Of a DNA stretch of 64,000 bases, positions 26,465 to 50,032 are shown one piece after another. The notes below the pieces were generated by a model that was not told the DNA's origin, did no database searches, and was given only the letters and a program-made list of their open reading frames with translations. A program made the position numbers and the translations under genes. Origin of the DNA: Rhizobium jaguaris (lineage in GTDB: Bacteria; Pseudomonadota; Alphaproteobacteria; Rhizobiales; Rhizobiaceae); NCBI RefSeq assembly GCF_003627755.1, contig NZ_CP032695.1, forward strand, positions 124,001 to 188,000, in the 5' to 3' direction. The first letter of the stretch is position 1. Each line of letters starts with the position of its first letter.

Positions 26465-26989
26465 TCAGGCGGCGGCTGCCAGGTGCTCCAGCTCTTCATG
26501 GAGATGTTCGGCATAGCTGCGCAATACCGTCAGTTCGAACCGCTCCAGTCCGGTACGCGTCAGGTGCAGCGAGACATGGCCGAAAAGCGTGACCACCGAA
26601 TGGCCTTCGGGAAAAACTGAGGGATCGAGATCGACGGCGGTGCCTTTCGCTAGGGTTTCGGCCGCAAGGGGACCGGAAAGGCCGATACGAACCCGCCCAT
26701 GGCTCTGGTCGGAGACAAAGGCATTCCCTTGGAGGATTGATGAGAGAGCGGCAATGCGCGCAGGTGCAAGCTTGTCGTCGCCGACGACGAACCATTGCCG
26801 GAAGCCGGCCGGGCGGAGACTGCTTTCCGCAAGGTCGGCTGCCGAAAGATAGCCGGCTAGGATTTTGGTATCGATCGAGCCCATCACATGCAGTAGATGG
26901 CCTTCCGGCAGGGTCTCCAGCCGGATGCCCGACCCTTCGAATACGGCCTTGCCGGCAAGTGCCGGTCTGTGTGCGGGACGATCACGCAT
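26465..26989 (-). CDS. soxG: Sarcosine oxidase / N-methylglutamate dehydrogenase gamma subunit
   Basis: A 174-residue gamma subunit of the heterotetrameric sarcosine-oxidase family, a folate-binding-like fold (SIDTKILAGYLSAADLAESS, RVRIGLSGPLAAETLAKG, HVSLHLTRTGLERFELTVLR). The ATG at 26987-26989 overlaps the end of the alpha-subunit gene. The order B-D-A-G is that of both soxBDAG and mgdABCD. With GmaS and GlxBCD nearby, it more likely belongs to N-methylglutamate dehydrogenase (MgdD). Confidence 0.85.
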   Translation of the reverse strand: MRDRPAHRPALAGKAVFEGSGIRLETLPEGHLLHVMGSIDTKILAGYLSAADLAESSLRPAGFRQWFVVGDDKLAPARIAALSSILQGNAFVSDQSHGRVRIGLSGPLAAETLAKGTAVDLDPSVFPEGHSVVTLFGHVSLHLTRTGLERFELTVLRSYAEHLHEELEHLAAAA

Positions 26990-29915
26990 GCAGTTTCTCG
27001 TTCTCAGGATCGATGAAGATCGGGCTGCAGAGCAGCGCTTCGGTGAATTCGTTTCTAAGGCCATTCCAGACCGTGACCTTTTCACCAATACGCTCCGGCC
27101 CGCGCTTGATCAGTGCCAGGCCGATCGTGTGGCCGAGGCTTGGCGAAAATGCGCTGGAGGTGACATAGCCCTGGTCGTTCTCGAGCGTGGCGGCGGCCCG
27201 ATCCGCCAGGATATGGGCGCCGGTGCGGAAGCTCGTGGCAGGATTGATCGGCTTCACGCCGACAAGGCGCGGTCGGTCGGGTAACTGCAGGCCTTCGCGA
27301 GTCAGCATGGCCTTGCCGATGAAATCCGACTTGGTCGCTGAGACCATCCGACCGAGGCCAAGATCATTTGGCGTCACCGTGCCGTTGATTTCGGCGTGGG
27401 TGACATGGCCCTTTTCGATGCGCATCACGCCGAGCGCTTCGGCGCCGTAAGGGCAAATACCGTGCTTCTCGCCAACCTCCATGATGGCATCCGCCACCCA
27501 TTCACCGTAACCGGCAGGTACGGCGAGCTCATAAGCGAGTTCGCCGGAAAAGGAGATTCGGAAGAGTCGGCCTTCGAGCGTACCGCCAAAGAGCGAGACA
27601 ATGCGGGCACTCATAAAGGGGAAGGCAACGTCGGACAAATCCTCATCGACGATCTCGGAGAGGATTGCCCGCGATTTTGGGCCAGCAATCGCCATCTGCG
27701 CCCATTGGTCGGTCGAGGAGGCGAAGTAGACGTCGAGTTCAGGCCAGAGCGTCTGGGCGCAGAATTCGAGATGAGTGAGCACACCGGCCGCGAGCGCCGT
27801 CGTTGTCGTCATGAAGAAGTGATTTTCACCGAGCCGGCTGGTCGTGCCGTCATCGTAGATCATGCCGTCTTCGCGCAGCATGACGCCATACCGTGCCTTG
27901 CCGACGGACAACTTGGCAAAGCCGTTGCAATAGACGCGGTCAAGGAAGGTTGCCGCATCCCTGCCGAGGATCTCGATCTTGCCGAGCGTCGAGACATCGC
28001 AGATACCGGCGTTCTTGCGGATGTTCAGCACCTCTCGATCGACGCTTTCACGCCAGGTGGTCTCGCCTTGGCGCGGGAACCAGGATGAGCGATACCAAAG
28101 GCCCGTCTCGACAAAGGTGGCGCCATTCTTCTTGGCCCAGTTATGCAGCGGCGACTTGCGCGCCGGCTGGAAGTGTTTGCCGCGCGCGGTGCCGGTCAGC
28201 GCGCCGAAGGAGACCGGCGTATAAAACGGGCGGAAGGTTGTCGTGCCGACCTCGGCCGGCGAGACGCCGCGCGCTTCTGCAAGGATGCCGATAGCGTTGA
28301 TATTGGACAGCTTGCCCTGATCGGTCGCCATACCGTTGGTGGTGTAGCGCTTGGCGAGCTCGACATGGCCGTAGCCTTCGCGCACGGCAAGGCCGAGGTC
28401 CTTCAGATGAACGTCGTTCTGGTAATCGACGAACGCCTTGCCCTTGCCGCCTTTAACATACCAGAGCGACGCAACGGCCGGGGAGATCTCCTCCACCACT
28501 GCAAAGGCTGGCATGACGTTGCTGAAGCCGATCGCCTTCAGTGCCTCAACCGCTTTGCCGGCGCCATCGCCTAAGCAGGCATCCGTGGCGGCAAGGCCGG
28601 CGGCCGAGCCGGCAATCAGCAAGCCCTCTTGCCTTTCCGGTGCCAGGAACGCGGCTTTCTCCGCGGACCAGATGGGCTTTGCGCCGCGTTGGCATGCAAG
28701 GTGGATGATCGGGCTCCAGCCACCGGACACAGCCAGTGCATCGGCCTCGATGCGTTGAGTGCCCGAGGCGGTCGCGACGCTCAAACGATGCAAGCACTTG
28801 CGGCCATGCGCGTCGACGACACGGGCATTGGTTAGCACCGGAGCACGGCCTGACCAGGTGTCGTGGGAATTGGCACGGCTGTCGACGATGGCGGCGACCT
28901 CGAGGCCGGCGGCTTCAAGGTCGGCGGCGGTGCGGTAACCGGATTGGTTCGTTGTGAAGACGACGGTGCGAACGCCGGGAGCAATCGCTTGACGGTTGAG
29001 GTAGCTGCACATGGCGCCGGCCATCATAACGCCAGGAATGTCGTTGCCGCCGAAGACGAGAGGGCGTTCCTCTGCGCCGGTCGCAAGGATCGCCCGCGTG
29101 GCGATGATGCGCCAAAGGCGCTCGACCGGACGGTGCGGATCGGGCGTTGCCAGATGTTTCTGCACGCGCTCGACGGCGCCGAAGACATTATCGTCGTACC
29201 AGCCGATGACTGTGGTGCGCGACAGGAGCCGCACGTTCGGGAGGCTTTCGAGTTCGTCGAGAATATCCCGCAGGATTGTGCCGGCCTCAAGGAGAAGGTT
29301 ACCGCCGAGTGCAGGACCCTCGTCGGCGACGATGACGCGGGCGCCCGCGCGTCCCGCCGTCAGGGCTGCGGCGAGGCCCGTCGGTCCCGCACCGATCACA
29401 AGCAGGTCGCAATGACCCCAGCGTTTCTCATAGGAATCTGGATCGGCCTCGTAGGACGCCTTACCGAGGCCGGCGGCCTTGCGGATCAGCGGTTCGTAGA
29501 GTTTCTCCCAAAGGCCTGCCGGCCACATAAACGTCTTGTAATAGAAGCCGGCGCTGAGGAAGGGCGAGAACAGGCCGTTGACGGCGCCGATATCGAAGCC
29601 GAGCGAGGGCCAGCGGTTTTGGCTGCGCGCGATCAATCCTTCATGGAGTTCGATCATCGTGGCGCGGCTATTGGCTTCGGTCCGGCCGCCGGTCCCTGTC
29701 GTCACCAGCGCATTGGGTTCGGCGGCACCCGCCGTCAGGATACCGCGCGGCCGATGATACTTGAAACTACGGCCCACGAGCTGGATGCCGTTGGCAAGCA
29801 GGGCGGAGGCGAGTGTGTCGCCGGGATGGCCTGTCAGCTCCCGGCCGTCGAAGGTAAAGTTGACGGTTTTCGAGCGGTCGATTTGACCGCCGACGGAGAG
29901 ACGGTAGCTCGTCAT
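26982..29915 (-). CDS. soxA: Sarcosine oxidase / N-methylglutamate dehydrogenase alpha subunit
   Basis: A 977-residue alpha subunit. The N-terminus (DGRELTGHPGDTLASALLAN) is a ferredoxin-like region; the dinucleotide-binding motif follows in VIGAGPTGLAAALTAGRAG, near residue 170, and the C-terminal 380 residues are a GcvT-type tetrahydrofolate-binding domain (SRLGENHFFMTTTTALA, ISFSGELAYELAVPAGYGE). It would pass the one-carbon unit to folate as methylene-THF. Full length compared with the family. It overlaps soxD by 4 bp and soxG by 8 bp. Confidence 0.93.
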   Translation of the reverse strand: MTSYRLSVGGQIDRSKTVNFTFDGRELTGHPGDTLASALLANGIQLVGRSFKYHRPRGILTAGAAEPNALVTTGTGGRTEANSRATMIELHEGLIARSQNRWPSLGFDIGAVNGLFSPFLSAGFYYKTFMWPAGLWEKLYEPLIRKAAGLGKASYEADPDSYEKRWGHCDLLVIGAGPTGLAAALTAGRAGARVIVADEGPALGGNLLLEAGTILRDILDELESLPNVRLLSRTTVIGWYDDNVFGAVERVQKHLATPDPHRPVERLWRIIATRAILATGAEERPLVFGGNDIPGVMMAGAMCSYLNRQAIAPGVRTVVFTTNQSGYRTAADLEAAGLEVAAIVDSRANSHDTWSGRAPVLTNARVVDAHGRKCLHRLSVATASGTQRIEADALAVSGGWSPIIHLACQRGAKPIWSAEKAAFLAPERQEGLLIAGSAAGLAATDACLGDGAGKAVEALKAIGFSNVMPAFAVVEEISPAVASLWYVKGGKGKAFVDYQNDVHLKDLGLAVREGYGHVELAKRYTTNGMATDQGKLSNINAIGILAEARGVSPAEVGTTTFRPFYTPVSFGALTGTARGKHFQPARKSPLHNWAKKNGATFVETGLWYRSSWFPRQGETTWRESVDREVLNIRKNAGICDVSTLGKIEILGRDAATFLDRVYCNGFAKLSVGKARYGVMLREDGMIYDDGTTSRLGENHFFMTTTTALAAGVLTHLEFCAQTLWPELDVYFASSTDQWAQMAIAGPKSRAILSEIVDEDLSDVAFPFMSARIVSLFGGTLEGRLFRISFSGELAYELAVPAGYGEWVADAIMEVGEKHGICPYGAEALGVMRIEKGHVTHAEINGTVTPNDLGLGRMVSATKSDFIGKAMLTREGLQLPDRPRLVGVKPINPATSFRTGAHILADRAAATLENDQGYVTSSAFSPSLGHTIGLALIKRGPERIGEKVTVWNGLRNEFTEALLCSPIFIDPENEKLHA

Positions 29916-30190
29916 GCCTGGCCTCCGAGCTTGGCGAGGGCAGCGTCGCTCACCTCATAAGCGGCGTGGGTGACGGTGTCGCGCTCGACGACCAGCCAGC
30001 GGCGGCAGCCGGAGGAATGGTGCCAATATTCCTTGTGGCGCCCCTTCGGATTGTCTCGGAGGTAGACATAGTCATACCACGCCTCAGGGCCGGCATTCGG
30101 GGCGGGACGTGTCAGGCTTGCATCGCCCTTGATGGAAAACTCCTCCTTGGGGCGGAGGCCGCAGTGAGGGCAGGAAATCAGGCTTGCCAT
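29912..30190 (-). CDS. soxD: Sarcosine oxidase / N-methylglutamate dehydrogenase delta subunit
   Basis: A 92-residue delta subunit with the zinc site typical of SoxD: Cys-x2-Cys in SCPHCGLRPKEEF and His-x3-Cys-type residues in YWHHSSGCRRWLVV. The pattern WYDYVYLRDNPKGRHKEYW is diagnostic. It lies between the beta and alpha subunit genes, overlapping the latter. Confidence 0.92.
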   Translation of the reverse strand: MASLISCPHCGLRPKEEFSIKGDASLTRPAPNAGPEAWYDYVYLRDNPKGRHKEYWHHSSGCRRWLVVERDTVTHAAYEVSDAALAKLGGQA

Positions 30191-30202: not shown

Positions 30203-31453
30203 TCAATGCAGGTTGGGCTGGGCGCCGACGCCCTTTTCATCGATCTGATAGCCGCGTCGGAAGCGGTCAAGCCGCAGTTGCCGGGCGGTTTCATGCGGCT
30301 CATTGCGGGCAATCAGGTGGGCATAGCAGTAGCCGGAGGCAGGCGTCGCTTTGAAGCCACCGTAACACCAGCCGGCATTCAGATAGAGATTGTCGATATG
30401 GGTCCGGTCGATGATCGGCGATCCGTCCATACTCATATCCATGACGCCGCCCCACGTGCGCAGGTAGCGCACGCGGGTCAGCGACGGGATCATGGCGACG
30501 CCGGCCTCGGCGACATGTTCGACGGTCGCGAGATTGCCGCGCTGTGCATAGGAATTGTACCCGTCGATGTCGCCGCCGAAGACAAGGCCGCCCTTGTCCG
30601 ATTGGGAGACATAAAAATGGCCGGCGCCAAAGGTGACGACCGTATCGATGAAGGGTTTCAGGCCCTCGGACACGAAGGCCTGCAGCACATGGCTTTCGAT
30701 CGGCAGGCGTAGGCCCGCCATATCGGCGACGGTGGTGGAATTGCCGGCTGCGGCGAGCGCCAGCTTGCCGCAGCCGATGAAGCCCCTTGAGGTCTCGACA
30801 CCGGTCACGCTGCCATTCTCGGCGCGGATACCGGTTACCTCGCAGCCTGTGATAATGTCGACGCCGCGATTGTCGGCGCCACGAGCATAGCCCCAGGCGA
30901 CCGCATCGTGACGAACCGTCCCGCCGCGCGGTTGGAACAGGCCGCCCATGATAGGGAAGCGGGCATTATCGAAATCGAGGAAAGGCAGCATCTTACGCAC
31001 GGCCGTTCGATCAAGGAATTCGGCATCGACGCCATGCAGCCGCATGGCGTTGCCGCGACGGGTATAGGCGTCACGTTGTGCATCGGAATGGAAAAGATTG
31101 AGCACGCCGCGCTGCGAGACCATGGCATTGAAGTTGAAATCCTGCTCCAGGCCTTCCCAGAGCTTCATTGACAACTCGTAGAAAGGGTTGTTGCCGGGCA
31201 ACAGGTAGTTCGAACGAATGATCGTTGTGTTGCGGCCGATGTTGCCCGAGCCGAGATAGCCCTTTTCCAACACCGCGACATTGGTGATGCCGAAGGTCTT
31301 GGCGAGGTAGTAGGCCGTTGCAAGCCCATGGCCGCCGCCACCGACGATGACAACATCATAATGCGGCTTCGGTGCCGGACTGCGCCAGGCTGCGGTCCAG
31401 TCCTTGTTGCCCCGAAGGCCGTTCAGAAAGATCGAAAGTGCGGAATAGCGCAT
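30203..31453 (-). CDS. soxB: Sarcosine oxidase / N-methylglutamate dehydrogenase beta subunit
   Basis: A 416-residue FAD-dependent amine oxidase subunit. The FAD-binding motif VGGGGHGLATAYYLAK lies near residue 37, and NIGRNTTIIRSNYLLPGN and TWGGVMDMSMDGSPIIDRT are typical of the SoxB family, which also binds FMN covalently. It is the first gene of the minus-strand soxBDAG operon, divergent from the GlxA-type regulator. It oxidises the N-methyl group of sarcosine or, given the surrounding genes, of N-methylglutamate (MgdA). Confidence 0.92.
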   Translation of the reverse strand: MRYSALSIFLNGLRGNKDWTAAWRSPAPKPHYDVVIVGGGGHGLATAYYLAKTFGITNVAVLEKGYLGSGNIGRNTTIIRSNYLLPGNNPFYELSMKLWEGLEQDFNFNAMVSQRGVLNLFHSDAQRDAYTRRGNAMRLHGVDAEFLDRTAVRKMLPFLDFDNARFPIMGGLFQPRGGTVRHDAVAWGYARGADNRGVDIITGCEVTGIRAENGSVTGVETSRGFIGCGKLALAAAGNSTTVADMAGLRLPIESHVLQAFVSEGLKPFIDTVVTFGAGHFYVSQSDKGGLVFGGDIDGYNSYAQRGNLATVEHVAEAGVAMIPSLTRVRYLRTWGGVMDMSMDGSPIIDRTHIDNLYLNAGWCYGGFKATPASGYCYAHLIARNEPHETARQLRLDRFRRGYQIDEKGVGAQPNLH

Positions 31454-31539: not shown

Positions 31540-32499
31540 ATGACCCCAGCCGATAGCAAAAGCGTCCAGAAAATCGGTTTCCTCCTCGTGCCAGGATTTG
31601 CGCTGATGTCCTATGCGTCCGCGATCGAGCCGCTTCGCGCCGCAAACCTCATCGCTGGACGCGAACTATACCGTCTTTCCATGTTTTCTTCGCACGGCAC
31701 GTCGGTGCCGTCCTCGTCGGGTGCCGTAGTTCCCGCGGCACCTCTGCCGTCTCGCGGCACTGGTCTCGACATGGTCTTCGTTTGCGCCGGTGGTTCGCCG
31801 CGCGATTGGCACCACCCGACCGTGCATGCCTGCCTCCGGCAGTTGGCACGCGAAGGCGTGCGGATCGGCGGTATTTCGGGCGGCCCGTACCTGCTTGCCG
31901 CCGCAGGGCTGCTTGCCGGGCGTGATTTCACCATTCATTGGGAACATGCGCCGGCGCTGCTCGAAGCATTCCCGGATCTTACACCACGTCAGGCCCGCTT
32001 CGTCATCGACGGCAATCGCATCACTTGCGGTGGCGGTATCGCGCCGCTGGACATGATGCATGCGCTGATTGCCGAGCGCACCGGCGCCGATTTCGCCCGC
32101 CGCGTCAGCGACTGGTATTTGCATACGGAGATCGGCGAGCCGGCCGCGCCGCAGCGGGCCTCGCTTGCAGAACGTTACGGCGTGCACCACCCGGGCCTGC
32201 TCAGCGTCCTTGCCAAGATGGAAGAGACCATTGAGATGCCGCTTGATCGTACGACGATGGCTCGGATCGCCGGCGTTACCGCCCGCCATCTCGACAGGCT
32301 GTTCGCCGCCCATCTGGAAACGACCTTTCTCGAGCAATATCGCCGCATCCGGCTGCAGCATGCATTACGCCTGCTTCGCCAAAGCCCGCTGTCGATCTCG
32401 GAAATCGCGGTTGCGACCGGCTTTTCCAGCGCTGGCCATTTCTCGCGACTGTTTCGCGAGGCTTATGGCAGGGCGCCGCGCGATATGCGGCGGGACTAG
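31540..32499 (+). CDS. glxA: GlxA-family AraC-type transcriptional regulator
   Basis: A 319-residue regulator with an N-terminal DJ-1/PfpI-like domain (KIGFLLVPGFALMSYASAIE, VFVCAGGSPRDW, GGISGGPYLLAAAGL) and a C-terminal AraC helix-turn-helix pair (MARIAGVTARHLDRLF and ISEIAVATGFSSAGHFSRLF). This subclass controls choline, carnitine, sarcosine and methylamine genes. It diverges from soxB and precedes the XRE-cupin regulator, so it probably activates the sox/mgd operon and perhaps the glx genes. It starts at 31540 after AAAGAG. Confidence 0.88.
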   Translation: MTPADSKSVQKIGFLLVPGFALMSYASAIEPLRAANLIAGRELYRLSMFSSHGTSVPSSSGAVVPAAPLPSRGTGLDMVFVCAGGSPRDWHHPTVHACLRQLAREGVRIGGISGGPYLLAAAGLLAGRDFTIHWEHAPALLEAFPDLTPRQARFVIDGNRITCGGGIAPLDMMHALIAERTGADFARRVSDWYLHTEIGEPAAPQRASLAERYGVHHPGLLSVLAKMEETIEMPLDRTTMARIAGVTARHLDRLFAAHLETTFLEQYRRIRLQHALRLLRQSPLSISEIAVATGFSSAGHFSRLFREAYGRAPRDMRRD

Positions 32500-32579: not shown

Positions 32580-33263
32580 ATGAATACCAAGCGCGAAACG
32601 ACGGAGCAGAAGGACCACGCGCATGGCAGCCGCTCTGCCTTCACTCAGGATCCGCATGCCGTTCGCGAGCCGAAGGAAAACAACCTCGAAATGGCGATCG
32701 GCCACGAGGTGCGCGCCTTCCGCAAGAAACTCGGTATCACGGTGACGGATCTCGCCGCTGCGACCGGCATATCGCTCGGCATGTTGTCGAAGATCGAGAA
32801 TGGCAATATTTCGCCGTCGCTGACGACGCTGCAATCGCTGTCACGCGCCCTCGGCGTGCCGCTCACCGCCTTTTTCCGCCGTTACGAGGAGCCGCGTAAC
32901 GCTGTCTTCGTCAAGGCGGGACAGGGTGTCGAACTCGAACGCCGCGGCACGCGCGCGGGCCATCAATATAATCTGCTCGGACACATCGACAATAATACGA
33001 GCGGCGTCATCGTTGAGCCCTACCTCATAACCCTGACCGCGGATTCCGACGTCTTCCCGACCTTCCAGCACGAGGGCATGGAGTTTCTCTATATGCTCGA
33101 AGGCGAGGTCGTTTATCGTCATGGCGACCAGCTTTTCCCTATGCAACCGGGCGACAGCTTGTTCTTTGATGCCGATGCGCCGCATGGCCCCGAAGTGCTT
33201 GTCAAGCTGCCGAGCCGCTACCTGTCGATCATTAGCTATCCACAAGTGAACAAGAATACCTAA
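32580..33263 (+). CDS. XRE-family regulator with C-terminal cupin domain
   Basis: A 227-residue regulator. A Cro/CI-type helix-turn-helix (RAFRKKLGITVTDLAAATGI, SLGMLSKIENGNISPSL) occupies about residues 40-95, and a cupin ligand-binding domain follows (TFQHEGMEFLYMLEGEVVYRH at around 165). Such regulators sense small amines or amino acids. It lies between the GlxA-type regulator and the glxBCD genes on the same strand, suggesting a role in amine-dependent control of the glx-gmaS block. Confidence 0.9.
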   Translation: MNTKRETTEQKDHAHGSRSAFTQDPHAVREPKENNLEMAIGHEVRAFRKKLGITVTDLAAATGISLGMLSKIENGNISPSLTTLQSLSRALGVPLTAFFRRYEEPRNAVFVKAGQGVELERRGTRAGHQYNLLGHIDNNTSGVIVEPYLITLTADSDVFPTFQHEGMEFLYMLEGEVVYRHGDQLFPMQPGDSLFFDADAPHGPEVLVKLPSRYLSIISYPQVNKNT

Positions 33264-33275
33264 CTTGCCTTAAAA

Positions 33276-33294: not shown

Positions 33295-33353
33295 GTTGAA
33301 GTTCAAAAAAAGACCTGTTACTCATTTTGCAGATGCGAACGGAGGGTTTGATC

Positions 33354-34250
33354 ATGTGCGGAATTGTCGGTCTCTTCCTGAAGGATAAAAGCCTGGAGCC
33401 TCAGCTCGGAGCGCTCCTGTCGTCCATGCTGGTGACGATGACCGATCGCGGGCCGGATAGCGCCGGCATTGCCATCTATGGCGACGGTGACGGCGACAAG
33501 GCGAAGATCACCGTTCAGTCCGCCAGTCCGAAGAAGGATTTCGCTGGCCTGGAAACGGAATTGATGAGGGCGCTCGACAGCTATCTTTCGATCGAGGTCA
33601 AGAGTACGCATGCGGTCATCACCTTGCCAAGGAACCGGCTCGACGACGGCCGCGCGGCAATCGCCGAACTTCGTCCCGACGTGCGGATCATGAGCAGCGG
33701 CGATGCGATCGAGATCTATAAGGAAACCGGCCTGCCGAAGGATGTCGTTTCCCGCTTTTCCGTCACCGCGATGGCGGGCACGCACGGTATCGGCCACACG
33801 CGCATGGCAACGGAGTCCGCCGTGACGACGCTTGGCGCCCATCCTTTCTCGACCGGCTCCGACCAGTGCCTTGTGCACAACGGCTCGCTGTCGAACCACA
33901 ACAATCTTCGCCGCGAACTGAAGCATCAGGGCATGACCTTCGAGACGGAAAACGACTCCGAGGTTGCCGCTGCCTATCTGACGGCCGAGATGGCCAAGGG
34001 GAAGAATCTGGGTGAAGCGCTGGAGAGCGCGGTCGACGACCTCGACGGTTTTTTCACCTTCGTCGTCGGCACCAAGTCAGGCTTCGGCGTCGTGCGCGAT
34101 GCGATCGCCTGCAAGCCTGCCGTCATGGCTGAAACGGATCGTTATGTTGCTTTCGGCTCGGAATATCGTGCGCTTGTCAGCCTGCCCGGCATCGAAGCGG
34201 CGCGTGTCTGGGAGCCGGAGCCGGCAACCGTTTATTTCTGGGAACGCTGA
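33354..34250 (+). CDS. glxB: GlxB / MgsA: class II glutamine amidotransferase-type subunit
   Basis: A 298-residue Ntn-type amidotransferase subunit. The ATG at 33354 places the nucleophile Cys at residue 2 (MCGIVGLFLKD), after GGAGGG. Other motifs are DRGPDSAGIAIYG, GHTRMATESAVTT, LVHNGSLSNHNNL and NDSEVAAAYL. It is the first subunit of N-methylglutamate synthase (MgsABC), which makes N-methylglutamate from gamma-glutamylmethylamide or glutamate plus methylamine. It precedes glxC by 54 bp. Confidence 0.9.
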   Translation: MCGIVGLFLKDKSLEPQLGALLSSMLVTMTDRGPDSAGIAIYGDGDGDKAKITVQSASPKKDFAGLETELMRALDSYLSIEVKSTHAVITLPRNRLDDGRAAIAELRPDVRIMSSGDAIEIYKETGLPKDVVSRFSVTAMAGTHGIGHTRMATESAVTTLGAHPFSTGSDQCLVHNGSLSNHNNLRRELKHQGMTFETENDSEVAAAYLTAEMAKGKNLGEALESAVDDLDGFFTFVVGTKSGFGVVRDAIACKPAVMAETDRYVAFGSEYRALVSLPGIEAARVWEPEPATVYFWER

Positions 34251-34304: not shown

Positions 34305-34991
34305 ATGCCCACATTTGATCTTGCGGTGACCCCGCTTCGCGATCTCAATCAGACCCTGCACGACATTGTACAGGGCGATAACGACCTTCAGTTCGAAGTC
34401 GTCAATCCGCGTGGCCATCATGCGGTCGCCGCCGGCGTGCACGCGCCTGTCAGCATCGATATCCGCGGCAGCGTCGGCTATTACTGCGGCGGCATGAACG
34501 ACGAGGCCGTTATCACTGTGCACGGTTCGGCTGGCCCCGGTGTCGGCGAGAACATGGTGTCCGGCCGGATAACCGTCAAAGGCGACGCCAGCCAGTACGC
34601 GGGCGCGACCGGTTGCGGTGGCCTTTTGGTGATCGAAGGCAATGCCTCGTCGCGCTGCGGCATCTCCATGAAAGGTATCGATATCGTCGTGCGTGGCAAT
34701 ATCGGCCACATGTCCGCTTTCATGGCGCAAGCCGGCAACCTCGTCGTTCTCGGCGACGCTGGCGAGGCGCTTGGCGACTCCCTCTACGAGGCACGCATCT
34801 TCGTGCGCGGCAAGGTCCAAAGCCTCGGCGCCGACTGTATTGAGAAGGAGATGCGCTCCGAGCACATCGAATTGCTCGGCCGCCTCCTCGAAAAGGCCGG
34901 CATCACCGATGCAAGGCCCGAGGAATTCAGCCGCTACGGTTCCGCCCGCAAGCTCTATAGCTTCCACGTCGACAATGCCGACGCCTACTAA
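34305..34991 (+). CDS. glxC: GlxC / MgsB: glutamate-synthase GXGXG-domain subunit
   Basis: A 228-residue right-handed beta-helix subunit corresponding to the C-terminal GXGXG domain of glutamate synthase. It shows repeated strands (GSVGYYCGGMNDEAVITVHG, GVGENMVSGRITVKGDASQY, GGLLVIEGNASSRCGISMKG). It bridges the amidotransferase and FMN subunits in N-methylglutamate synthase. Located between glxB and glxD at short spacing. Confidence 0.92.
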   Translation: MPTFDLAVTPLRDLNQTLHDIVQGDNDLQFEVVNPRGHHAVAAGVHAPVSIDIRGSVGYYCGGMNDEAVITVHGSAGPGVGENMVSGRITVKGDASQYAGATGCGGLLVIEGNASSRCGISMKGIDIVVRGNIGHMSAFMAQAGNLVVLGDAGEALGDSLYEARIFVRGKVQSLGADCIEKEMRSEHIELLGRLLEKAGITDARPEEFSRYGSARKLYSFHVDNADAY

Positions 34992-41477: not shown

Positions 41478-42439
41478 GCGGCGGTACTGAAATTCCAGTT
41501 AGGGTAACGAAGGTGACGCCGGTCGCCCATCGCATCAAGCGCTTCCGCTTCGAGCGCCTGGATGGCATGCCGATGCCCTATTTCTCCGGCGGCGCCCATA
41601 TCATCGTCTCGATGAACGATGACGGCCATATCAGGCGTAACGCCTATTCGCTGATGTCGCCTCCGCATGATTGCACGGCCTATGAGGTCAGTGTGCTGCA
41701 TGTCGAGGATTCACGCGGCGGCTCCACCTTCATGCATGAGAAAGTGAGTGAAGGGGACGAACTGAAGGTCAGCTATCCGGTTAACCTCTTCCAGCCGGAT
41801 TGGCGCGCCCGCAAGCATCTGCTGATCGCCGGCGGCATCGGTATCACGCCGTTCATCGCGATGATGGAGCAGTTTTCCCGCGAGGGCGGCAATTTCGAGC
41901 TGCACTACGCGGTGCGCGCCCGCGACCGCGGCGCCTATTGCGAGGAACTCGTCGCGCGCTATGGCCCCCATCGCGTGAAGATTTATTGCGACGTCGAAAA
42001 GAATTTTATTCCGTTCGCCCGCCTGCTCGAGAGCCAGCCGCTCGGCACGCATCTCTATGTGTGCGGCCCCTCCGGCATGATCGACGGAGTGCTGAAGGCA
42101 GGGTTGGAGGCCGGCTGGCCGGAGCAGAACCTGCATTCCGAGCGCTTTCTCTCTTCGCAACCCGGCAAGCCCTTCTCGATAAAGCTAACGCGTTCCGGGA
42201 AGACGGTTCATGTCGGCCATCACGAAAGCATGCTGGAGGCGATCGAGGCGGCAGGTGTAGACGCGCCTTTTCTCTGTCGCGGCGGGGCTTGTGGACAGTG
42301 CGAGACCGCGGTCGCCGCCTGCGAGGGCAAGCTTTTGCACCACGACGTCTATCTGACAGATGAAGAAAAGACTTCCGGCCGCAAGGTGATGATCTGCGTC
42401 TCCCGCTTCGAGGGAAACACACTGCATCTCGACCTTTAG
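41474..42439 (+). CDS. dmmB: Dimethylamine monooxygenase reductase subunit (DmmB-like)
   Basis: A 321-residue oxygenase reductase. An FNR/PDR-type flavin and NAD domain comes first (RRNAYSLMSPPHDCTAYEVS, HLLIAGGIGITPFIAMMEQF, YVCGPSGMIDGVL), and a plant-type [2Fe-2S] ferredoxin domain last (LCRGGACGQCETAV with the C-x4-C-x2-C cluster, and MICVSR). The GTG at 41474 overlaps the DmmA stop and follows GGAGG. It passes electrons from NADH to the heme-type subunit encoded next. Confidence 0.88.
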   Translation: MSGGTEIPVRVTKVTPVAHRIKRFRFERLDGMPMPYFSGGAHIIVSMNDDGHIRRNAYSLMSPPHDCTAYEVSVLHVEDSRGGSTFMHEKVSEGDELKVSYPVNLFQPDWRARKHLLIAGGIGITPFIAMMEQFSREGGNFELHYAVRARDRGAYCEELVARYGPHRVKIYCDVEKNFIPFARLLESQPLGTHLYVCGPSGMIDGVLKAGLEAGWPEQNLHSERFLSSQPGKPFSIKLTRSGKTVHVGHHESMLEAIEAAGVDAPFLCRGGACGQCETAVAACEGKLLHHDVYLTDEEKTSGRKVMICVSRFEGNTLHLDL

Positions 42440-42466: not shown

Positions 42467-43507
42467 ATGGCAATCGCCTTCAAGCAGGAAACGTTCCGGG
42501 ACGATTTCAGCTATCGAAACAGTCCGGAAAATATCCGGCGTTTTCCCTTTCCCTTCGACCGCGACGAGTACATGTATTCCGTCAACATGGAACCGCATGT
42601 GAAGGGGCAAAATGGAACCGTTTACGAAAGCCTCATCGATGTCGATGAGCATTATGTTGCCGAAATGCGCGACCGGGCTCTCGTGCTGAAGGAGGATCCG
42701 CTGCGCTATCAGGCGCTGCCGCATATGATGACGGCACAATGGGACACGCTGGAACTGTTGATGGAAGAACAGGCCTCCGGCTATCCCGAACACTTCTCCC
42801 TGGTCAAAAACGGTGACCAGTGGCGTTGGATCAATCGGCCACTCGGCATCGATGACAGCTTCACGTTCGGGGATGCGTCGACGCTGCCCTATGAGCCGTT
42901 CGAATATATCACCCGTCAGGCCCAGGGCGACTTCTGCATCGTCGACCAGCGCGACGGCAACCTCTGGATGGATGCCGGCATGGTCACAACACAGGCCGAC
43001 TGGTCGCTCGATTTCGACATCGGCATGAATTTCATGGAATGGCATGGACCGGTGCCGCTCGCCCATCAGATCGGCATCTTCGACCGCGCGCTGAAATTCC
43101 TCCTGAACCTGCAACAGGGCAAGCCGACGCGCCGCTTCAACTGGACGATGACCATCAATCCGCGCCTCGACACCAGCCCGGAAAACTATCCCAAATGGGG
43201 CCCGGACCGCACGACGGTAACACCCGACAATGTCGGCGAGAAAGTGCATCTGCGCGTCGAATTGCAGAGTCTATGGCGCCTGCCGCGTTCGAACGCAATT
43301 CTGTTCGTCATCCGCTGCTATCTGATGAACATGAGCGAACTCGTCACCGTCCCGAAATGGGCGCGACGGTTTCCGCGTGTGCTGCGCACGCTGCCGCCGG
43401 AACTGATCGACTACAAGGGGCTCACACGCTTCCGCGAGACCACGATCGACTGGCTTTCAAAATACGACGACGGCGCCTCGACCAGTCCCGGCTTCTTCCC
43501 GGATTGA
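42467..43507 (+). CDS. dmmC: Heme-dependent oxidative N-demethylase (DUF3445; DmmC-like)
   Basis: A 346-residue DUF3445-family oxidative N-demethylase. Recognisable are RRFPFPFDRDEYMYSVNM, ALPHMMTAQWDTLELLME, DFCIVDQRDGNLWMDAGMVT, the central FDIGMNFMEWHGPVPLA and RPRSNAILFVIRCYLMN-like LWRLPRSNAILFVIRCYLMN. It would oxidise dimethylamine to methylamine and formaldehyde. It lies 27 bp after the reductase gene, with GGAGAACGG before the ATG. Confidence 0.87.
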   Translation: MAIAFKQETFRDDFSYRNSPENIRRFPFPFDRDEYMYSVNMEPHVKGQNGTVYESLIDVDEHYVAEMRDRALVLKEDPLRYQALPHMMTAQWDTLELLMEEQASGYPEHFSLVKNGDQWRWINRPLGIDDSFTFGDASTLPYEPFEYITRQAQGDFCIVDQRDGNLWMDAGMVTTQADWSLDFDIGMNFMEWHGPVPLAHQIGIFDRALKFLLNLQQGKPTRRFNWTMTINPRLDTSPENYPKWGPDRTTVTPDNVGEKVHLRVELQSLWRLPRSNAILFVIRCYLMNMSELVTVPKWARRFPRVLRTLPPELIDYKGLTRFRETTIDWLSKYDDGASTSPGFFPD

Positions 43508-43575: not shown

Positions 43576-44913
43576 ATGACAAGAGTTGCCGTTATCGGCG
43601 CGGGTCCCTCGGGGCTGGCACAGTTGCGCGCCTTCCAGTCGGCTGCCAAGAAGGGTGCCGACATTCCGGAAGTCGTCTGCTTCGAAAAACAGTCGGACTG
43701 GGGAGGGCTTTGGAATTACACTTGGCGGACCGGCCTAGACGAATATGGCGAGCCGGTTCACGGCAGCATGTATCGTTACCTGTGGTCGAACGGCCCGAAG
43801 GAATGCCTGGAATTCGCAGACTATTCGTTCGAGGAGCATTTCGGCAAGCCGATCGCCTCCTATCCGCCACGTGCCGTCCTCTGGGACTATATCAAGGGAC
43901 GCGTTGAGAAAGCGGATGTGCGCAAGTGGGTTCGCTTCAGCACGCCGGTGCGCATGGTGCGTTTCGATGAGGAGGCGAAGAAATTCACGGTCACGGCGCA
44001 CGACCGCGTCGAAGATCGCATGTATGACGAGGCGTTCGATTATGTCGTGGTCGCCACCGGACATTTCTCGACGCCGAACGTTCCCTATTTCGAGGGTGTC
44101 AAGACCTTCAACGGCCGTGTGCTGCATGCCCATGACTTCCGCGATGCGCTGGAATTCAAGGGCAAGGACATCCTCATCGTCGGCCGCAGCTATTCGGCCG
44201 AAGACATTGGATCGCAATGCTGGAAATACGGCGCCAAGTCGGTGACGACGAGCTACCGCTCGAAGCCGATGGGCTTCAAATGGCCGGAGAATTTCGAGGA
44301 ACGGCCACTACTGACCCGACTTGAAAACAAGACGGCGTACTTTCTCGATGGATCATCGAAGGATGTCGACGCGCTGATCCTCTGCACCGGATATCAACAC
44401 CATTTCCCCTTCCTGCCGGACGAGTTGCGCTTGAAGACCGCCAACCGGCTGTGGGCCGACGGCCTCTACAAGGGCGTGATCTTCGACAAGAATCCGCAAC
44501 TCTTCTACATCGGCATGCAGGACCAATTTTATACCTTCAACATGTTCGACGTGCAGGCCTGGTGGGCGCGCGACGTTATGATGGGCCGCATCAAGCTGCC
44601 ATCGGAAGAGGGCCTGAAGGCGAATTTCGACATGTGGCGCGCCCGCGAGGAAACGCTGGAAGATGCCGAGCAGATGATCTGGTACCAGGGCGATTACGTG
44701 AAGGAGCTGCTTGCCGAAACCGACTATCCGAGCTTCGACATCGAAGGCACCAACAAGACCTTCATGGAGTGGGAGCACCACAAGGCGGAGAACGTCATGG
44801 GTTTCCGCGACCATGCCTATCGCTCGCTGATGACCGGCAACATGTCGCCGAAGCATCATACGCCCTGGGTCGATGCACTTGACGATTCCATGGAGGAATA
44901 TCTGCGCAACTAG
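43576..44913 (+). CDS. tmm: Trimethylamine monooxygenase
   Basis: A 445-residue class B flavin monooxygenase. The FAD motif [12 protein letters not shown] is at residue 6, [20 protein letters not shown] follows, and the NADPH motif is [18 protein letters not shown]. The fingerprint region is [19 protein letters not shown]. Length and motifs match bacterial Tmm, which oxidises TMA to TMAO. The gene is preceded by GAGGGGAATG and ends before a 9-bp hairpin. It sits between the dmm genes and tdm, making the pathway order TMA to TMAO to DMA explicit. Confidence 0.92.
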
Positions 44914-45019: not shown

Positions 45020-45628
45020 ATGGTCTTCATGGATTTTCAAACGAGCATTCTCGGCCGCATGAGCGGCTTTCTCTATCGTTGCCGCGCCGATGAGAACTAT
45101 ACGATGCTGGAAATGACCGACGGCATCGAGCGTGTCTTCGGCTATCCCGCGGATGAAATCATCGGCAATCGGACACGGACCTTCACTTCGATCATGTGCG
45201 GGGATGACGTGCCTCTCATGGACAATGTCGTCGGCATGGCGCTGGAAAAGCACACCGATTGGACGATGGAATACCGCATCCGTCACAATAACGGGCATTA
45301 CATCTGGGTGACGGAAACCGGCGGCGGTGTTTGGGCCGAGAACGGCGAGCTGCTTTATCTGGAAGGCAGCATCATCAATATCGAATCGCTCTATCAGCGC
45401 ATAGACGAGCAGACGGCCGACATGCGAGTGACGGTGTCGAAGACCGGCGAGATCCTGCAGTCACTGCGTTACCTGAAATTGCTTGCCGTCAACGCCGGCA
45501 TCGAGGCGGCAAGAGCCGGAACCGCGGGATCCGGCTTCGCGGTCTTGGCGGCGGAAATGCGTACGCTCGCCAACTCCTCGGAAGAGGCGGCGCGGGCGAT
45601 CTCGAATGCTCAGCGCAAGACGGATTGA
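45020..45628 (+). CDS. Small soluble PAS-chemoreceptor-type protein
   Basis: A 202-residue protein with no membrane segment. Residues 1-125 form a PAS domain (MTDGIERVFGYPADEIIG, WTMEYRIRHNNGHYIWVTET). Residues 140-200 match only the hairpin tip of chemoreceptors: KLLAVNAGIEAARAGTAGSG, FAVLAAEMRTLANSSEEAAR, compared with [19 protein letters not shown] in the full receptor at 2793. The long methylation and coiled-coil regions are missing. It may interact with CheA/CheW or act as a cytoplasmic sensor of amine oxidation or redox state. It lies after tmm and ends 3 bp before the convergent tdm stop. It could be a truncated receptor instead. Confidence 0.75.
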   Translation: MVFMDFQTSILGRMSGFLYRCRADENYTMLEMTDGIERVFGYPADEIIGNRTRTFTSIMCGDDVPLMDNVVGMALEKHTDWTMEYRIRHNNGHYIWVTETGGGVWAENGELLYLEGSIINIESLYQRIDEQTADMRVTVSKTGEILQSLRYLKLLAVNAGIEAARAGTAGSGFAVLAAEMRTLANSSEEAARAISNAQRKTD

Positions 45629-45631
45629 AGC

Positions 45632-48001
45632 TCAGGACCGTGGCCGCGTCTTTTGCGGGTCGTAGTGTGAGAGCGGCACGATGATGGCCGGCAAGCGTTT
45701 TTGCTGGCCGTCGAGTTTGCCGATCTCGACCGCTGTGCCGACCGTGGCATGGGTCACGTCAATGCGGGCAAGCGCGATCGTCTTGCCGAGAATCGGCGAG
45801 CGGGTGGCGCTGGTGACGACGCCGACCTGTGCTCGGCCGATATGAACACAATCGCCATGGCCGACCGCCTCATTGGCCTGGACATCCAGCCCGACCAGAA
45901 GGTGGCGTGGGTTCTCCTTGCGGCGGATCAGCGCCTCGCGGCCTATGAAATCGTCTTGTTTGGATTTCAGCGGCACGGTGAAACCGATGCCGGCCTCGAA
46001 GGGGTCGGTCTGATCGGTGAATTCGTGATGGGCAAAAATCAGCCCCGCCTCGATGCGCACCATGTCTAGGGCCTCAAGACCCATGGGCTTCAGACCATGC
46101 GGCTGGCCTGACTCCCAGACTGCGTCGAAGACAGTCAAAGCATCTTTGGGATGGCAGAAGATTTCGTAACCGAGTTCGCCGGTATAGCCGGTGCGCGAGA
46201 CAACGACAGGAGCACCCTCGAAGCCGCCGATGCGGCCGACGGAAAAGCGGAACCATTCGAGTTCGCCGATCGTCGGCTGGCGCGGCGCTGTCCAGATGAT
46301 CTCCCTCAAAATGTCGCGGCTCTTCGGTCCCTGCACGGCGATATTATGCATCTGGTCGGTCGATGAGCGCACCCAGGCCTTGAAGCCCTTTTTCTCGGCC
46401 TGCTCGCGCAGCCAGATGCCGCTGTAGTCATCGCCGCCGATCCAACGGAAATTCTTGTCGCCGAGCCGGAAGAGCGTGCCGTCGTCGATCATACCGCCGT
46501 TTTCGTAGCACATGGCGGAGTAGACGACCTGGCCGGTCGAAAGCTTGCGGACATCGCGTGTCAGGCAATATTGCAGCAGCTCTTCGGCATCCGGTCCCGT
46601 GACCTCGAACTTTCGGAGCGGCGAGAGATCGATAACCGCCGCTCGTTCCCGGCAGGCCCAATATTCCTCGACCGGGCCTTCGGCCGCAAAGCGGTTCGGC
46701 AGCCAGTAGCCGCGATATTCGGTGTAATCCCGCGTCAGGGCGGAGAGACGGGGATGGAAGGCGGTTTCCCGCGTCAGTTCGGCGTCTGAATCAGGGGTCA
46801 TGCGATAGGCTACCGCTCGTGAGAATTTCTCTTTTCCGGAAAAGGTGCGGACATGGATATCCGTCGGATCCCAGCCGTTTGCCGCATCGATATCATCAGG
46901 GCAAGAGGAGGAGACACAGACAAGGTCCGTCAGCGCCCGCATCAGCACATAGTCGCCCGGCCGCGACCAGGGCTCGTCGAGGTAGAGCTGATTGTTGTGA
47001 TCGATATTGGTATTGTAGAAATAGTTGAGTGCTTCCCAGCCCTTGCGGCCGGCTATGCCATAAGGCGCCAGCGCTGCATTGAAGTTGTCCGTGCAGTTTG
47101 CATGCCCCGGATAGCCCATATCGTCGTAATAACGGGAGTTGCAGGCGGTCGCGAAGGCGTCGTGGCGGCCAACCGTGTCCTGGACGATCTCCACCAGTGG
47201 CTCGAAATCGCGGTCGAAAGCCTTGGACGGCAAGCCCGGCGTCGGGTAGCTGCGGCCGAGCAAAGTGCGTGTGACGGTGGAATCGAGCGCCAGATCCAGG
47301 CCTTTGTCCACCTTGCGTGCAGCAAAAGCCTGAAAATCGGTGCATTGCCGGCCATAGACGTCGATGATCTGGATGAACTCGCCCGCGCGGACGAAATAGG
47401 CGGATGCGGTCGCGGCCCTGATGCGGATATCTTCGATCGGATCGGCCACTGGCTCGGGCAGGGCGGAGAGATAGTCGCGGATGACTCGGCTGCGCCGGAT
47501 CCTGATCTCGATCGGCGTTGCCGTATCCTGCGTCTGCGGCGACATTGCTTCGCCCGGCGCTGCAACGATCAGTAGGCCTTCCAGGGCGATGGCAAATTCA
47601 ACCTTGCTGCCAGGAGACGAGGCTTGTCCAAAGATTCGAACGGTACCAGCCGAAGCGAGATCGGCGCCACGCCGCTGCAGGGCGGTGCGTGTTCGGATCG
47701 CACTTTCCGCGTCGGAGGACAGGATGCCCTTCAGTCCCTCGGCGGCATTCGTAAAGGCGGCACCGAGGCCCTCAGATTGGAAACGGCCGTTCTCGCCGAG
47801 AAAGGAAATCTCGCAGACCTGACCGCCCTCACTGTCGGTCACCGCCACATGATCGCCGGGCTCGACGCGCACGACCAGCGATCCACCGCCCTTGCAGCGG
47901 TAGCGCTCGGTATCGCCCGGTAGCGTCGGTATGCCGGGATAGCGGACGATGCTAGCCGAAATGGGCCGAGCCCCGGCCATCGTCGGATGGAGATTTCGCA
48001 T
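45632..48001 (-). CDS. tdm: Trimethylamine N-oxide demethylase (Tdm; DUF1989-GcvT fusion)
   Basis: A 789-residue two-domain enzyme. The N-terminal half is a DUF1989-type domain; Cys287, Cys303 and Cys367 (in ATACNSRYY, HANCTDNFN and SSSCPDDID) show the 16- and 64-residue spacings I associate with the zinc ligands of characterised Tdm. The C-terminal half (from about 415) is a GcvT-like THF-binding domain (ENGGMIDDGTLFRLGDKNF, VVSRTGYTGELGYEIF). It splits TMAO into dimethylamine and formaldehyde, the latter caught by THF. The start at 47999-48001 has AGAGGG upstream. It converges on the PAS protein and diverges from the permease. Confidence 0.92.
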   Translation of the reverse strand: MRNLHPTMAGARPISASIVRYPGIPTLPGDTERYRCKGGGSLVVRVEPGDHVAVTDSEGGQVCEISFLGENGRFQSEGLGAAFTNAAEGLKGILSSDAESAIRTRTALQRRGADLASAGTVRIFGQASSPGSKVEFAIALEGLLIVAAPGEAMSPQTQDTATPIEIRIRRSRVIRDYLSALPEPVADPIEDIRIRAATASAYFVRAGEFIQIIDVYGRQCTDFQAFAARKVDKGLDLALDSTVTRTLLGRSYPTPGLPSKAFDRDFEPLVEIVQDTVGRHDAFATACNSRYYDDMGYPGHANCTDNFNAALAPYGIAGRKGWEALNYFYNTNIDHNNQLYLDEPWSRPGDYVLMRALTDLVCVSSSCPDDIDAANGWDPTDIHVRTFSGKEKFSRAVAYRMTPDSDAELTRETAFHPRLSALTRDYTEYRGYWLPNRFAAEGPVEEYWACRERAAVIDLSPLRKFEVTGPDAEELLQYCLTRDVRKLSTGQVVYSAMCYENGGMIDDGTLFRLGDKNFRWIGGDDYSGIWLREQAEKKGFKAWVRSSTDQMHNIAVQGPKSRDILREIIWTAPRQPTIGELEWFRFSVGRIGGFEGAPVVVSRTGYTGELGYEIFCHPKDALTVFDAVWESGQPHGLKPMGLEALDMVRIEAGLIFAHHEFTDQTDPFEAGIGFTVPLKSKQDDFIGREALIRRKENPRHLLVGLDVQANEAVGHGDCVHIGRAQVGVVTSATRSPILGKTIALARIDVTHATVGTAVEIGKLDGQQKRLPAIIVPLSHYDPQKTRPRS

Positions 48002-48091
48002 GTGACCCTCTTGAGGGGAATGATGTGCATCGCAGCACTCTGGTCATGCTGACAAAATGCTCTCCGAAAGTAAAGGGATATTGACTAAAAA

Positions 48092-48107
48092 GAAAAAATC
48101 TTCACTA
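48092..48107. promoter_or_regulatory. AT-rich motif between tdm and the permease
   Basis: GAAAAAATCTTCACTA lies in the 246-bp divergent promoter region between tdm and the APC permease and closely matches motifs before the XRE-cupin gene (32513) and glxB (33276). Confidence 0.35.
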
Positions 48108-48247
48108 TGTATAAAGGGTCGAGACTCGGAAATCCGTGTGGGAATACGGACGTTAAAACCACCGGCAGGCCTGCGATGCCATGGGAGGCACGTTCAGGGA
48201 GACGTACGAGAGATACGTCCGGAACAACAGAATGGGGAACTTCACCG

Positions 48248-50032
48248 ATGACGGATTTAGTCGACGCCGGCGTAGCAGCCGGCACCGAAGGTAAGCTTAT
48301 ACGCGCGCTCGACTGGAAGGGCGCATTCTGGGTTGCTGCGGGCGTACCGCCGCTCGTTCTCTTTTCCATCGGCGGCATCGCGGGTGCGACCGGCAAGCTT
48401 GCCTTTGCCGTGTGGATCATCTCGATGATCATGGGATTTCTGCAATCCTTCACTTACGCGGAAATTGCTGGAATGTTCGGCAACAAGTCCGGCGGCGCCT
48501 CGGTCTATGGTGCCACCGCATGGCTGCGCTATTCGAAGTTCATCGCGCCGCTCTCCGTCTGGTGCAATTGGTTCGCCTGGTCGCCGGTGCTGTCCCTTGG
48601 CTGCGCTATCGCGGCCGGTTATATCTTGAATGCCTTCTTCCCGATTCCAGCGGCGGATTCGCAGGCCGTCATCGCCTGGATCAGCGCGCATGCCGCTTCC
48701 GTAACGGCCGATAGCCCTCGCGTCGCCGAATATATTGCCGCCCATGCCGGTACCTCGGCGGAAGACGCCGTCAAGGCACTACTGAGCGCCGACGGCATTG
48801 CCGCGCTGACGCCGCCAATCCGGAGCTGGTCGCTTCTCAGCTTCAGCATTCCGTTCCTCGCAACCGCCAATATCAACGCCACCTTCTTTATAGGTGGGAT
48901 CCTGATGCTGATCATCTTCGCGATCCAGCATCGTGGTATTTCCGAAACGGCAAGTGTCCAGAAATGGCTGGCGATCATCGTTCTCGTGCCGCTGCTCATC
49001 ATCGGCCTCTATCCGATCGTCAGCGGCCAGATCGTCGCTGCCAATGTCACCGGCCTCGTTCCGCCGACGGCGGCCTATGCCGGCACCGACGGCAGTTGGA
49101 GCAATGGCGGATGGACGCTCTTTCTCGGCGGCCTCTACATCGCCGCCTGGTCGACCTACGGTTTCGAAACCGCCGTCTGCTATACCCGCGAGCTCAAGAA
49201 CCCGAAGACTGACACGTTCAAGGCGATCTTCTATTCCGGTCTTGTCTGCTGCCTGTTCTTCTTCCTCGTACCCTTCGCCTTCCAGGGCGTGCTTGGCCAT
49301 GCCGGCATGTTGGCGCCTGGCATCGTTGACGGCACCGGGGTGGCGGAAGCGCTCGGCGGCCTGATCGGCGCCGGCCGCATCGTCACGCAGCTCCTCGTCG
49401 TCCTGATGATCCTCGCCCTCTTCCTGGCCATTATGACAGCGATGGCAGGTTCTTCGCGGACGCTCTACCAAGGTTCGAAGGATGGCTGGCTGCCGAAATA
49501 TCTCGACCATGTCAACGGGAACGGCGCACCAACCAGGGCGATGTGGACGGACTTCGCGTTCAATCTCTGCCTTCTGGCGATCGCTTCGGATGCAAGCGGT
49601 TACTTCTTCGTGCTCGCTGTCTCCAACGTCGGCTACATCATCTTCAATTTCCTGAACCTGAATTCGGGCTGGATCCATCGCGTCGACTCCGGCCACATCG
49701 AACGCCCCTGGAAGGCACCGACTTGGTTGATCGGCCTCAACACAGTTCTCGCCTTCGTCAATGCCCTCTTCCTTGGTGCCGGCGCCAAGGTCTGGGGCTA
49801 CGCCAACGCTCTCTGGGTCGGCTTTGCCTTCGCCGCGCTGATCCTGCCGGTCTTCGCCTATCGACACTATGTCCGCGATGGCGGCAAGTTCCCGGCCGGC
49901 GCCATGGAGGATCTCGGCCTGGTTGGACAGGATTTGGGTGTCAAAAAGGCGGGTACTTTGCCGTATGTGGCGCTCGCCGGCGGCCTCGCCATCGTGTTGA
50001 TCGCCAATTGGATTTTCCAACTGCCAGCATAG
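48248..50032 (+). CDS. APC-family permease
   Basis: A 594-residue amino acid-polyamine-organocation transporter. I use the ATG at 48248 (MTDLVDAGVAAG) after GGGGAAC; the frame opens at 48107 without membrane sequence. The first helices read PLVLFSIGGIAGATG and FAVWIISMIMGFLQSFTYAE, with the APC consensus FGNKSGGASVYG. About 12 helices are predicted, with an unusual 85-residue insertion (residues about 150-235) after helix four. Divergent from tdm, it is a good candidate importer of TMA, TMAO or another methylated amine, replacing the TmoXVW ABC system of marine bacteria. Confidence 0.85.
   Translation: MTDLVDAGVAAGTEGKLIRALDWKGAFWVAAGVPPLVLFSIGGIAGATGKLAFAVWIISMIMGFLQSFTYAEIAGMFGNKSGGASVYGATAWLRYSKFIAPLSVWCNWFAWSPVLSLGCAIAAGYILNAFFPIPAADSQAVIAWISAHAASVTADSPRVAEYIAAHAGTSAEDAVKALLSADGIAALTPPIRSWSLLSFSIPFLATANINATFFIGGILMLIIFAIQHRGISETASVQKWLAIIVLVPLLIIGLYPIVSGQIVAANVTGLVPPTAAYAGTDGSWSNGGWTLFLGGLYIAAWSTYGFETAVCYTRELKNPKTDTFKAIFYSGLVCCLFFFLVPFAFQGVLGHAGMLAPGIVDGTGVAEALGGLIGAGRIVTQLLVVLMILALFLAIMTAMAGSSRTLYQGSKDGWLPKYLDHVNGNGAPTRAMWTDFAFNLCLLAIASDASGYFFVLAVSNVGYIIFNFLNLNSGWIHRVDSGHIERPWKAPTWLIGLNTVLAFVNALFLGAGAKVWGYANALWVGFAFAALILPVFAYRHYVRDGGKFPAGAMEDLGLVGQDLGVKKAGTLPYVALAGGLAIVLIANWIFQLPA

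Follow-up and report, generated by a model that had tools for sequence, protein, structure and literature searches.

Positions 26465 to 50032 of the window, the 64,000-nucleotide stretch of Rhizobium jaguaris DNA analyzed here, very probably constitute a complete aerobic methylated-amine catabolic island of a Rhizobium, equipped with a candidate pathway sensor in which a PAS domain is joined to the hairpin tip of a methyl-accepting chemotaxis protein (MCP). The pathway is a known one, in a group where it is common, and the remaining interest of the island is the sensor gene, here termed the PAS-tip gene.

The genome totals 8,025,568 bases on 4 contigs; on contig C2 (2.58 Mb), the window covers 124-188 kb. 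The block contains 20 uninterrupted genes, arranged as the first-pass annotation gave them (Table 1). Gene identities, synteny, co-occurrence, and purifying selection (estimated for the PAS-tip gene and tdm) were observed directly. The starts of mgsA, purU, dmmA, dmmB, the PAS-tip gene, and tmoP were moved inward by comparison with the annotated plasmid of Rhizobium sp. NXC14. No tRNA was found in the window, and no Rfam model matches the window at the gathering score.

Table 1. Genes of the methylated-amine island, with window coordinates and supporting matches.
Gene or product	Position	Strand	Support
mgdD/soxG-like, N-methylglutamate dehydrogenase (sarcosine-oxidase-type) gamma subunit	26465..26989	-	TIGR01375 93 bits, below cut-off 144; NXC14 homologue begins 26989; longer frame starts 27088
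mgdC/soxA-like alpha subunit	26982..29915	-	TIGR01372 1420 bits (cut-off 1164)
mgdB/soxD-like delta subunit	29912..30190	-	TIGR01374 116.8 bits (cut-off 116.5)
mgdA/soxB-like beta subunit	30203..31453	-	TIGR01373 718 bits (cut-off 529)
AraC-type regulator with DJ-1/PfpI domain, candidate TmaR, divergent from mgd	31540..32499	+	Pfam HTH_18 and DJ-1_PfpI
HTH_3-cupin regulator	32580..33263	+	Pfam HTH_3 and Cupin_2
mgsA/glxB, glutamine amidotransferase-like	33354..34250	+	GATase_6/7; frame opens 33327, start from NXC14 (about 33354)
mgsB/glxC	34305..34991	+	Pfam GXGXG
mgsC/glxD, FMN glutamate-synthase-like	35010..36338	+	Pfam Glu_synthase 291 bits
gmaS (glnT), gamma-glutamylmethylamide synthetase	36419..37726	+	TIGR03105 675 bits (cut-off 470); PDB 7cql 611 bits
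purU, formyl-THF deformylase	37826..38710	+	TIGR00655 332 bits (cut-off 286); frame opens 37727, start from NXC14
folD, methylene-THF dehydrogenase/cyclohydrolase	38714..39613	+	NF010785 492 bits (cut-off 396)
dmmD, GcvT-like folate protein	39728..40861	+	Pfam GCV_T, GCV_T_C
dmmA	40872..41477	+	NF041259 119 bits (cut-off 60); start from NXC14
dmmB, ferredoxin reductase subunit	41474..42439	+	Fer2 and NAD_binding_1; start from NXC14
dmmC, haem-dependent oxidative N-demethylase alpha subunit	42467..43507	+	PF11927 (HODM_asu-like) 231 bits; PDB 5lte 496 bits
tmm, trimethylamine monooxygenase	43576..44913	+	NF058570 857 bits (cut-off 675); PDB 2vq7 775 bits
PAS and MCP hairpin-tip protein, 199 aa, candidate pathway sensor	45029..45628	+	PAS_3 62 bits, MCPsignal 50 bits; start from NXC14
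tdm, TMAO demethylase	45632..48001	-	NF053776 1273 bits (cut-off 1100); PDB 9q59 1058 bits
tmoP, APC-type TMAO permease	48248..50032	+	NF053774 838 bits (cut-off 690); frame opens 48107, start from NXC14

Enzymes, transport and regulation

The first-pass annotation had placed Tmm, Tdm, DmmDABC, GmaS, MgsABC, MgdABCD, FolD, PurU, two regulators, a permease, and a PAS-MCP protein within the block, and family models, domains, and solved relatives find every one of them encoded there. Its gene names and its trimethylamine (TMA)-to-formate reading are supported by NCBIfam and Pfam profile matches and by PDB relatives. Curated NCBIfam cut-offs are exceeded by Tmm, Tdm, TmoP, GmaS, DmmA, the SoxA/B/D-type subunits, PurU, and FolD. 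Aerobic TMA oxidation and the N-methylglutamate pathway were judged by Tmm, Tdm, and GmaS, which score 857, 1273, and 675 bits, respectively, all above cut-off. Tdm, Tmm, GmaS, and DmmC are matched over nearly their full length by the solved proteins 9q59, 2vq7, 7cql, and 5lte. DmmC has no NCBIfam match and is recognized instead by Pfam HODM_asu-like (231 bits) and by 5lte, a haem-dependent oxidative N-demethylase (496 bits). The four-gene dmmDABC set is complete and in order: GcvT-like, DmmA, reductase, and HODM.

MgsABC is identified by its domains (GATase, GXGXG, and Glu_synthase) and gene order only. The order and domains of mgsABC and mgdABCD fit the pathway, but the models do not distinguish Mgd from sarcosine oxidase, and MgdD falls below its model cut-off (93 vs 144 bits) yet is positioned with the other mgd genes. 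It is the context that decides between MgdABCD and a heterotetrameric sarcosine oxidase, and between MgsABC and other Glx-type proteins, as family models alone do not separate them. A true sarcosine oxidase for betaine or choline use, which would make the island two adjacent pathways, would fit the sarcosine oxidase names of models TIGR01372-01374 and the resemblance of the AraC/DJ-1 regulator to GbdR. It is very improbable, given that the sox-like genes sit with gmaS and mgs, as in the N-methylglutamate clusters presented in the main texts of PMC4543880 and PMC8235418, and that tmaR homologues often adjoin mgd in the amine clusters described in the main text of PMC13390433.

For the methylated-amine pathway, the reactions, transport, and regulation outlined here are predicted from protein families, and every step in the R. 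jaguaris genome from homology. TmoP would import TMAO. Tmm would convert TMA to TMAO, from which Tdm would produce dimethylamine and formaldehyde. DmmABC would make monomethylamine, with DmmD as the putative formaldehyde/folate partner. GmaS, MgsABC, and MgdABCD would carry the last methyl group through gamma-glutamylmethylamide and N-methylglutamate to methylene-THF, releasing the nitrogen. FolD and PurU would drain the one-carbon unit to formate, which a formate dehydrogenase encoded on a different contig could then remove. According to the main texts of the respective papers, mutants have established that tmm and the dmm genes are needed in Paracoccus (PMC4543880) and that dmmD is needed in Ruegeria (PMC5520151).

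The statement in the first-pass annotation that the window has no formate dehydrogenase holds for the TIGR01591 family: the genome has 12 matches to it, none of them within the window. The top match to this formate dehydrogenase alpha model (972 bits, cut-off 666) is on contig C1, as is the one formate-THF ligase gene, so the one-carbon route can finish beyond the window. That the window lacks a formate dehydrogenase is a matter of where it was cut. The APC permease, which had been regarded as unusual, is no novelty: its score of 838 exceeds the cut-off of 690 for TmoP, the TMAO permease family, and TmoP is also named in published clusters.

The best NCBIfam match of the AraC/DJ-1 gene (31540-32499) is GbdR, below the GbdR cut-off. 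The gene lies beside mgd and is divergent from mgdA, the position of TmaR. Its resemblance by type and position to TmaR of Ruegeria pomeroyi (SPO1584), an AraC-type regulator adjoining the mgd operon in an amine cluster in the main text of PMC13390433, accounts for it. The TmaR clade in the tree of that paper is described there as having over 44% identity. R. pomeroyi also has a GntR-type regulator, TmoR (PMC13390433, main text), whereas none is found beside tmm here and an HTH-cupin gene is present instead. The HTH-cupin gene (32580..33263) matches the PuuR model at 65 bits, below the cut-off of 211. The TmaR-type AraC/DJ-1 regulator and the HTH-cupin protein probably control the island. A listing of words common to intergenic stretches returned the AT-rich word AAAGAAAAAAT before mgsA (33255-33330) and between tdm and tmoP (47995-48260), a putative shared control site.

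Several other genes are found in the window. At 2793-4886 lies a full-size chemoreceptor gene whose product has both HAMP and MCP signalling domains, and Mu-type and IS110-type transposase genes are located at 8429-12472, about 14 kb from the island. Upstream of the island (17991-24754) are a luciferase-like monooxygenase, an aldehyde dehydrogenase, and then an ABC transporter composed of a solute-binding protein, two permeases, and an ATPase. At 52788-62583, genes for a peptide-type ABC transporter, an MFS transporter, and an amidohydrolase come after another AraC/DJ-1 regulator.

Distribution in Rhizobium and published counterparts

The tight packing of all steps had been considered unusual for a rhizobial genome, which the comparisons do not support. 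At least 80% of the block is present in one place in 82 of the 411 plasmid records with a match, and an equivalent is published for Aminobacter and similar islands for Paracoccus and Roseobacter. The 30 listed of those 82 plasmid records are all from Rhizobium and are 81.7-84.2% identical. Laboratory root-nodule strains with the block include R. tropici CIAT 899 and strain 3841 (on pRL11). Full-length Tdm (E 1e-200 or better) occurs in 30 of the 151 genomes of the family sample, with 28 above the family cut-off. The class sample of 289 genomes, the own genome included, has 24 with Tdm at E 0, of which 21 exceed the cut-off, and 50 with GmaS above its cut-off. Together, the syntenic plasmid records and the Tdm frequencies make the rhizobial island ordinary for its group. 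The island was also considered as a rare acquisition, which was rejected because of the synteny in the 82 plasmid records and an ordinary base composition (G+C 0.604, against 0.593 in the rest of the window).

Rhizobium sp. NXC14 has the same gene order as the block, except for minCDE before tdm. This cell-division operon (L166, 22435-24264) is inserted between the PAS-tip gene and tdm, and its proteins have no match in the window. Literature searches found no account of the rhizobial island.

The closest descriptions come from other genera. Genes for TMA oxidation and the N-methylglutamate pathway are clustered in Paracoccus and marine Roseobacter islands as they are here; in some strains these islands lie on extrachromosomal replicons, and tmoP is named in a figure legend (PMC4543880, main text and legends). 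Unlike the block, these islands also hold serine-cycle genes. A word search of the main text of PMC4543880 found no mention of a PAS or chemotaxis gene, the sole 'PAS' being within 'by-pass'. Aminobacter has tmm, tmd, tmoP, dmmDABC, gmaS, mgsABC, mgdABCD, folD, and purU in common with the island, and in one A. aminovorans strain the N-methylglutamate pathway genes are predicted to be on a plasmid (PMC8235418, main text). The Aminobacter route, as given there, differs in including fdh and serine-cycle genes, and 'PAS' and 'chemotaxis' are absent from that main text by word search.

A PAS protein with a chemoreceptor-like tip

The PAS-tip gene lies between tmm and tdm. The encoded protein has a PAS domain in its front part, followed by a hairpin that matches the MCP signalling domain over 44 residues, and these two parts account for the sequence in both the Pfam search and the predicted model. 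The MCPsignal profile matches at 50 bits over columns 50-93 of 172 only, with the conserved hairpin tip present. A full signalling domain with methylation helices is absent, as judged from the profile columns and from the model, which has one PAS domain followed by two helices. The PAS fold is predicted with pLDDT of 79-93 in 10-residue blocks over residues 21-120, and the two long helices of the hairpin are predicted at low confidence (51-65 in such blocks). The matches in structure searches are generic PAS folds such as those of ARNT, LOV, NifL, and FixL, and the hairpin is barely covered; no cofactor is assigned, since only generic folds were matched.

Many, but not all, methyl-accepting chemotaxis proteins have a membrane anchor. 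The PAS-tip hairpin matches the solved tips of these proteins, but the protein is only 199 aa long, has no HAMP match in the Pfam search, and retains little more of the signalling domain than its tip. We read it as a soluble candidate sensor of the pathway. It would most likely report the state of the pathway, either to a CheA/CheW chemotaxis array or to a regulator.

The first of these outputs, a cytoplasmic chemoreceptor whose hairpin tip joins the CheA/CheW array for metabolism-dependent taxis to methylated amines, is a tentative possibility that falls somewhat short of even. Two short receptor fragments align with the protein, 4jpb over residues 129-198 (E 3.3e-8) and 3ur1 over residues 134-198 (E 4.3e-8); both were presumably crystallized with chemotaxis partners. 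Among 39 aligned rows, hand-picked from the loci and from 120 listed of 425 proteins, 27 columns are invariant, and 15 of these are in the tip. The turn of the tip, however, reads GTAGSGF in the window and in 13 other rows of the 39, with T and S where the solved tips have E and R or K (GEAGRGF in 6s18, GEAGKGF in 4jpb), and further rhizobial rows also differ from the solved tips. The match to only 44 residues of a 172-column model, the lack of a HAMP match, and the low-confidence hairpin also weigh against a chemoreceptor.

The dN/dS of the PAS-tip gene is 0.056-0.168, and that of Tdm is 0.058-0.152, each against six relatives; with dS near 1 these values are rough. A decaying MCP fragment was considered and rejected based on the open frame and the low dN/dS of the gene. 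The first-pass annotation had called the PAS-MCP protein unusual. The gene is in fact a standing part of the Rhizobium cluster, but pointing it out was useful, as no description of it was found in literature searches or in word searches of the main texts of PMC13390433, PMC5520151, PMC8235418, and PMC4543880; subscription papers were mostly outside the scope of these searches, which are no proof of absence.

Association with the pathway and possible outputs

The PAS-tip gene co-occurs with the pathway. It is found (E 1e-30) in 8 of the 151 genomes of the family sample. In every one of these 8, among them the own genome, the contig that bears it also bears Tdm, at distances that range between a few bases and about 44 kb. 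With the own genome removed, the contingency table is 7, 0, 22, 121 (Fisher 5e-6). Four other genomes of the class sample have a full-length relative, and three of them have Tdm, adjoining or about 3 kb away. The fourth (G015) lacks Tdm, giving a table of 3, 1, 20, 264 (Fisher 0.0017). These p-values are indicative only, because the samples are phylogenetically non-independent and the named set is enriched in methylotrophs. The PAS-tip gene is not needed for the pathway, since 22 of the 30 family-sample genomes with Tdm have no PAS-tip match at 1e-30. Likewise, 20 of the 23 class-sample Tdm genomes besides the own one have no full-length copy.

A wider comparison took the best 80 of 559 loci, of which 37 were used as full-length; another 40 match mainly the MCP tip, and L133, L145, and L157 have no match to island proteins at 1e-15. 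Island genes lie within the fetched flank (10 kb) at 26 of the 37 full-length loci, and 24 of these 26 come from Rhizobium, Allorhizobium, Shinella, or records titled Rhizobiales. L086 and G037, being equal in length, are apparently the same contig and thus are not independent. The 11 unlinked carriers comprise 8 alphaproteobacterial and 3 gammaproteobacterial genomes. Of the 8 alphaproteobacterial carriers, 7 have Tdm and all 8 have GmaS above cut-off, compared with 21/289 and 50/289 in the class sample. GmaS is present and Tdm absent in G443, while a Rhodospirillum MAG has the PAS-tip gene and tdm about 25 kb apart on one contig. Neither the three gammaproteobacterial carriers nor G015 has a match above cut-off to Tdm or GmaS. 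A Hyphomicrobium genome encodes a second, PAS-only relative besides its PAS-tip gene (G444:C1:966265-966651, open frame of 150 aa).

On a tree of 27 rows, from which many near-copies were dropped, linkage to the island requires 4 changes, at least 3 of them forced by starred branches; the tree has several long branches, and the placement of the PAS-AraC row is unsure. Among 14 homologue loci compared, three gene groups reach three loci, beyond the homologue and its opposite-strand shadow. None of the three is an island gene, and they look like GGDEF, ABC-ATPase, and DegP-type proteins.

The second output would make the PAS-tip protein a regulatory partner that signals a metabolite to the AraC/DJ-1 regulator, with the MCP tip serving as a dimerizing coiled coil only. 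Genome G165 fuses a related PAS domain (45-46% identical) behind an AraC/DJ-1 regulator, and three further protein clusters are alike. According to the main text of PMC13390433, none of the amines of the pathway is the effector of TmaR, which also favors a partner of this kind. Such a partner is nevertheless rather unlikely: the fused regulator is only 31% identical to that of the island, the 19.5-kb stretch around the fusion matches no further island protein at 1e-8, and the fused PAS domain has relatives that are combined with GGDEF domains (P0135 and P0136), so the fusion does not single out AraC. The fusion is located at L015 514-1884 (G165:C8); the tmm, tdm, and tmoP genes of G165 lie on a different contig, where no PAS-tip match adjoins them.

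The PAS input domain seems to be used with different outputs, which leaves the output of the candidate sensor between chemotaxis and transcription. More broadly, a small cytoplasmic PAS-MCP-tip receptor that lacks adaptation may, across Alphaproteobacteria, act as a sensor dedicated to the TMA/TMAO pathway, recruited or kept near tdm in several lineages and coupling intracellular demethylation flux to chemotaxis or to an amine regulator; we hold this to be almost an even call, but a little under it.

Many Rhizobium strains, including several that come from root nodules, carry the whole TMA-to-formate gene set on large plasmids. Within this set, the PAS-tip gene offers a definite candidate for methylated-amine sensing, one that can be deleted, and bears on the question of the TmaR effector (PMC13390433).
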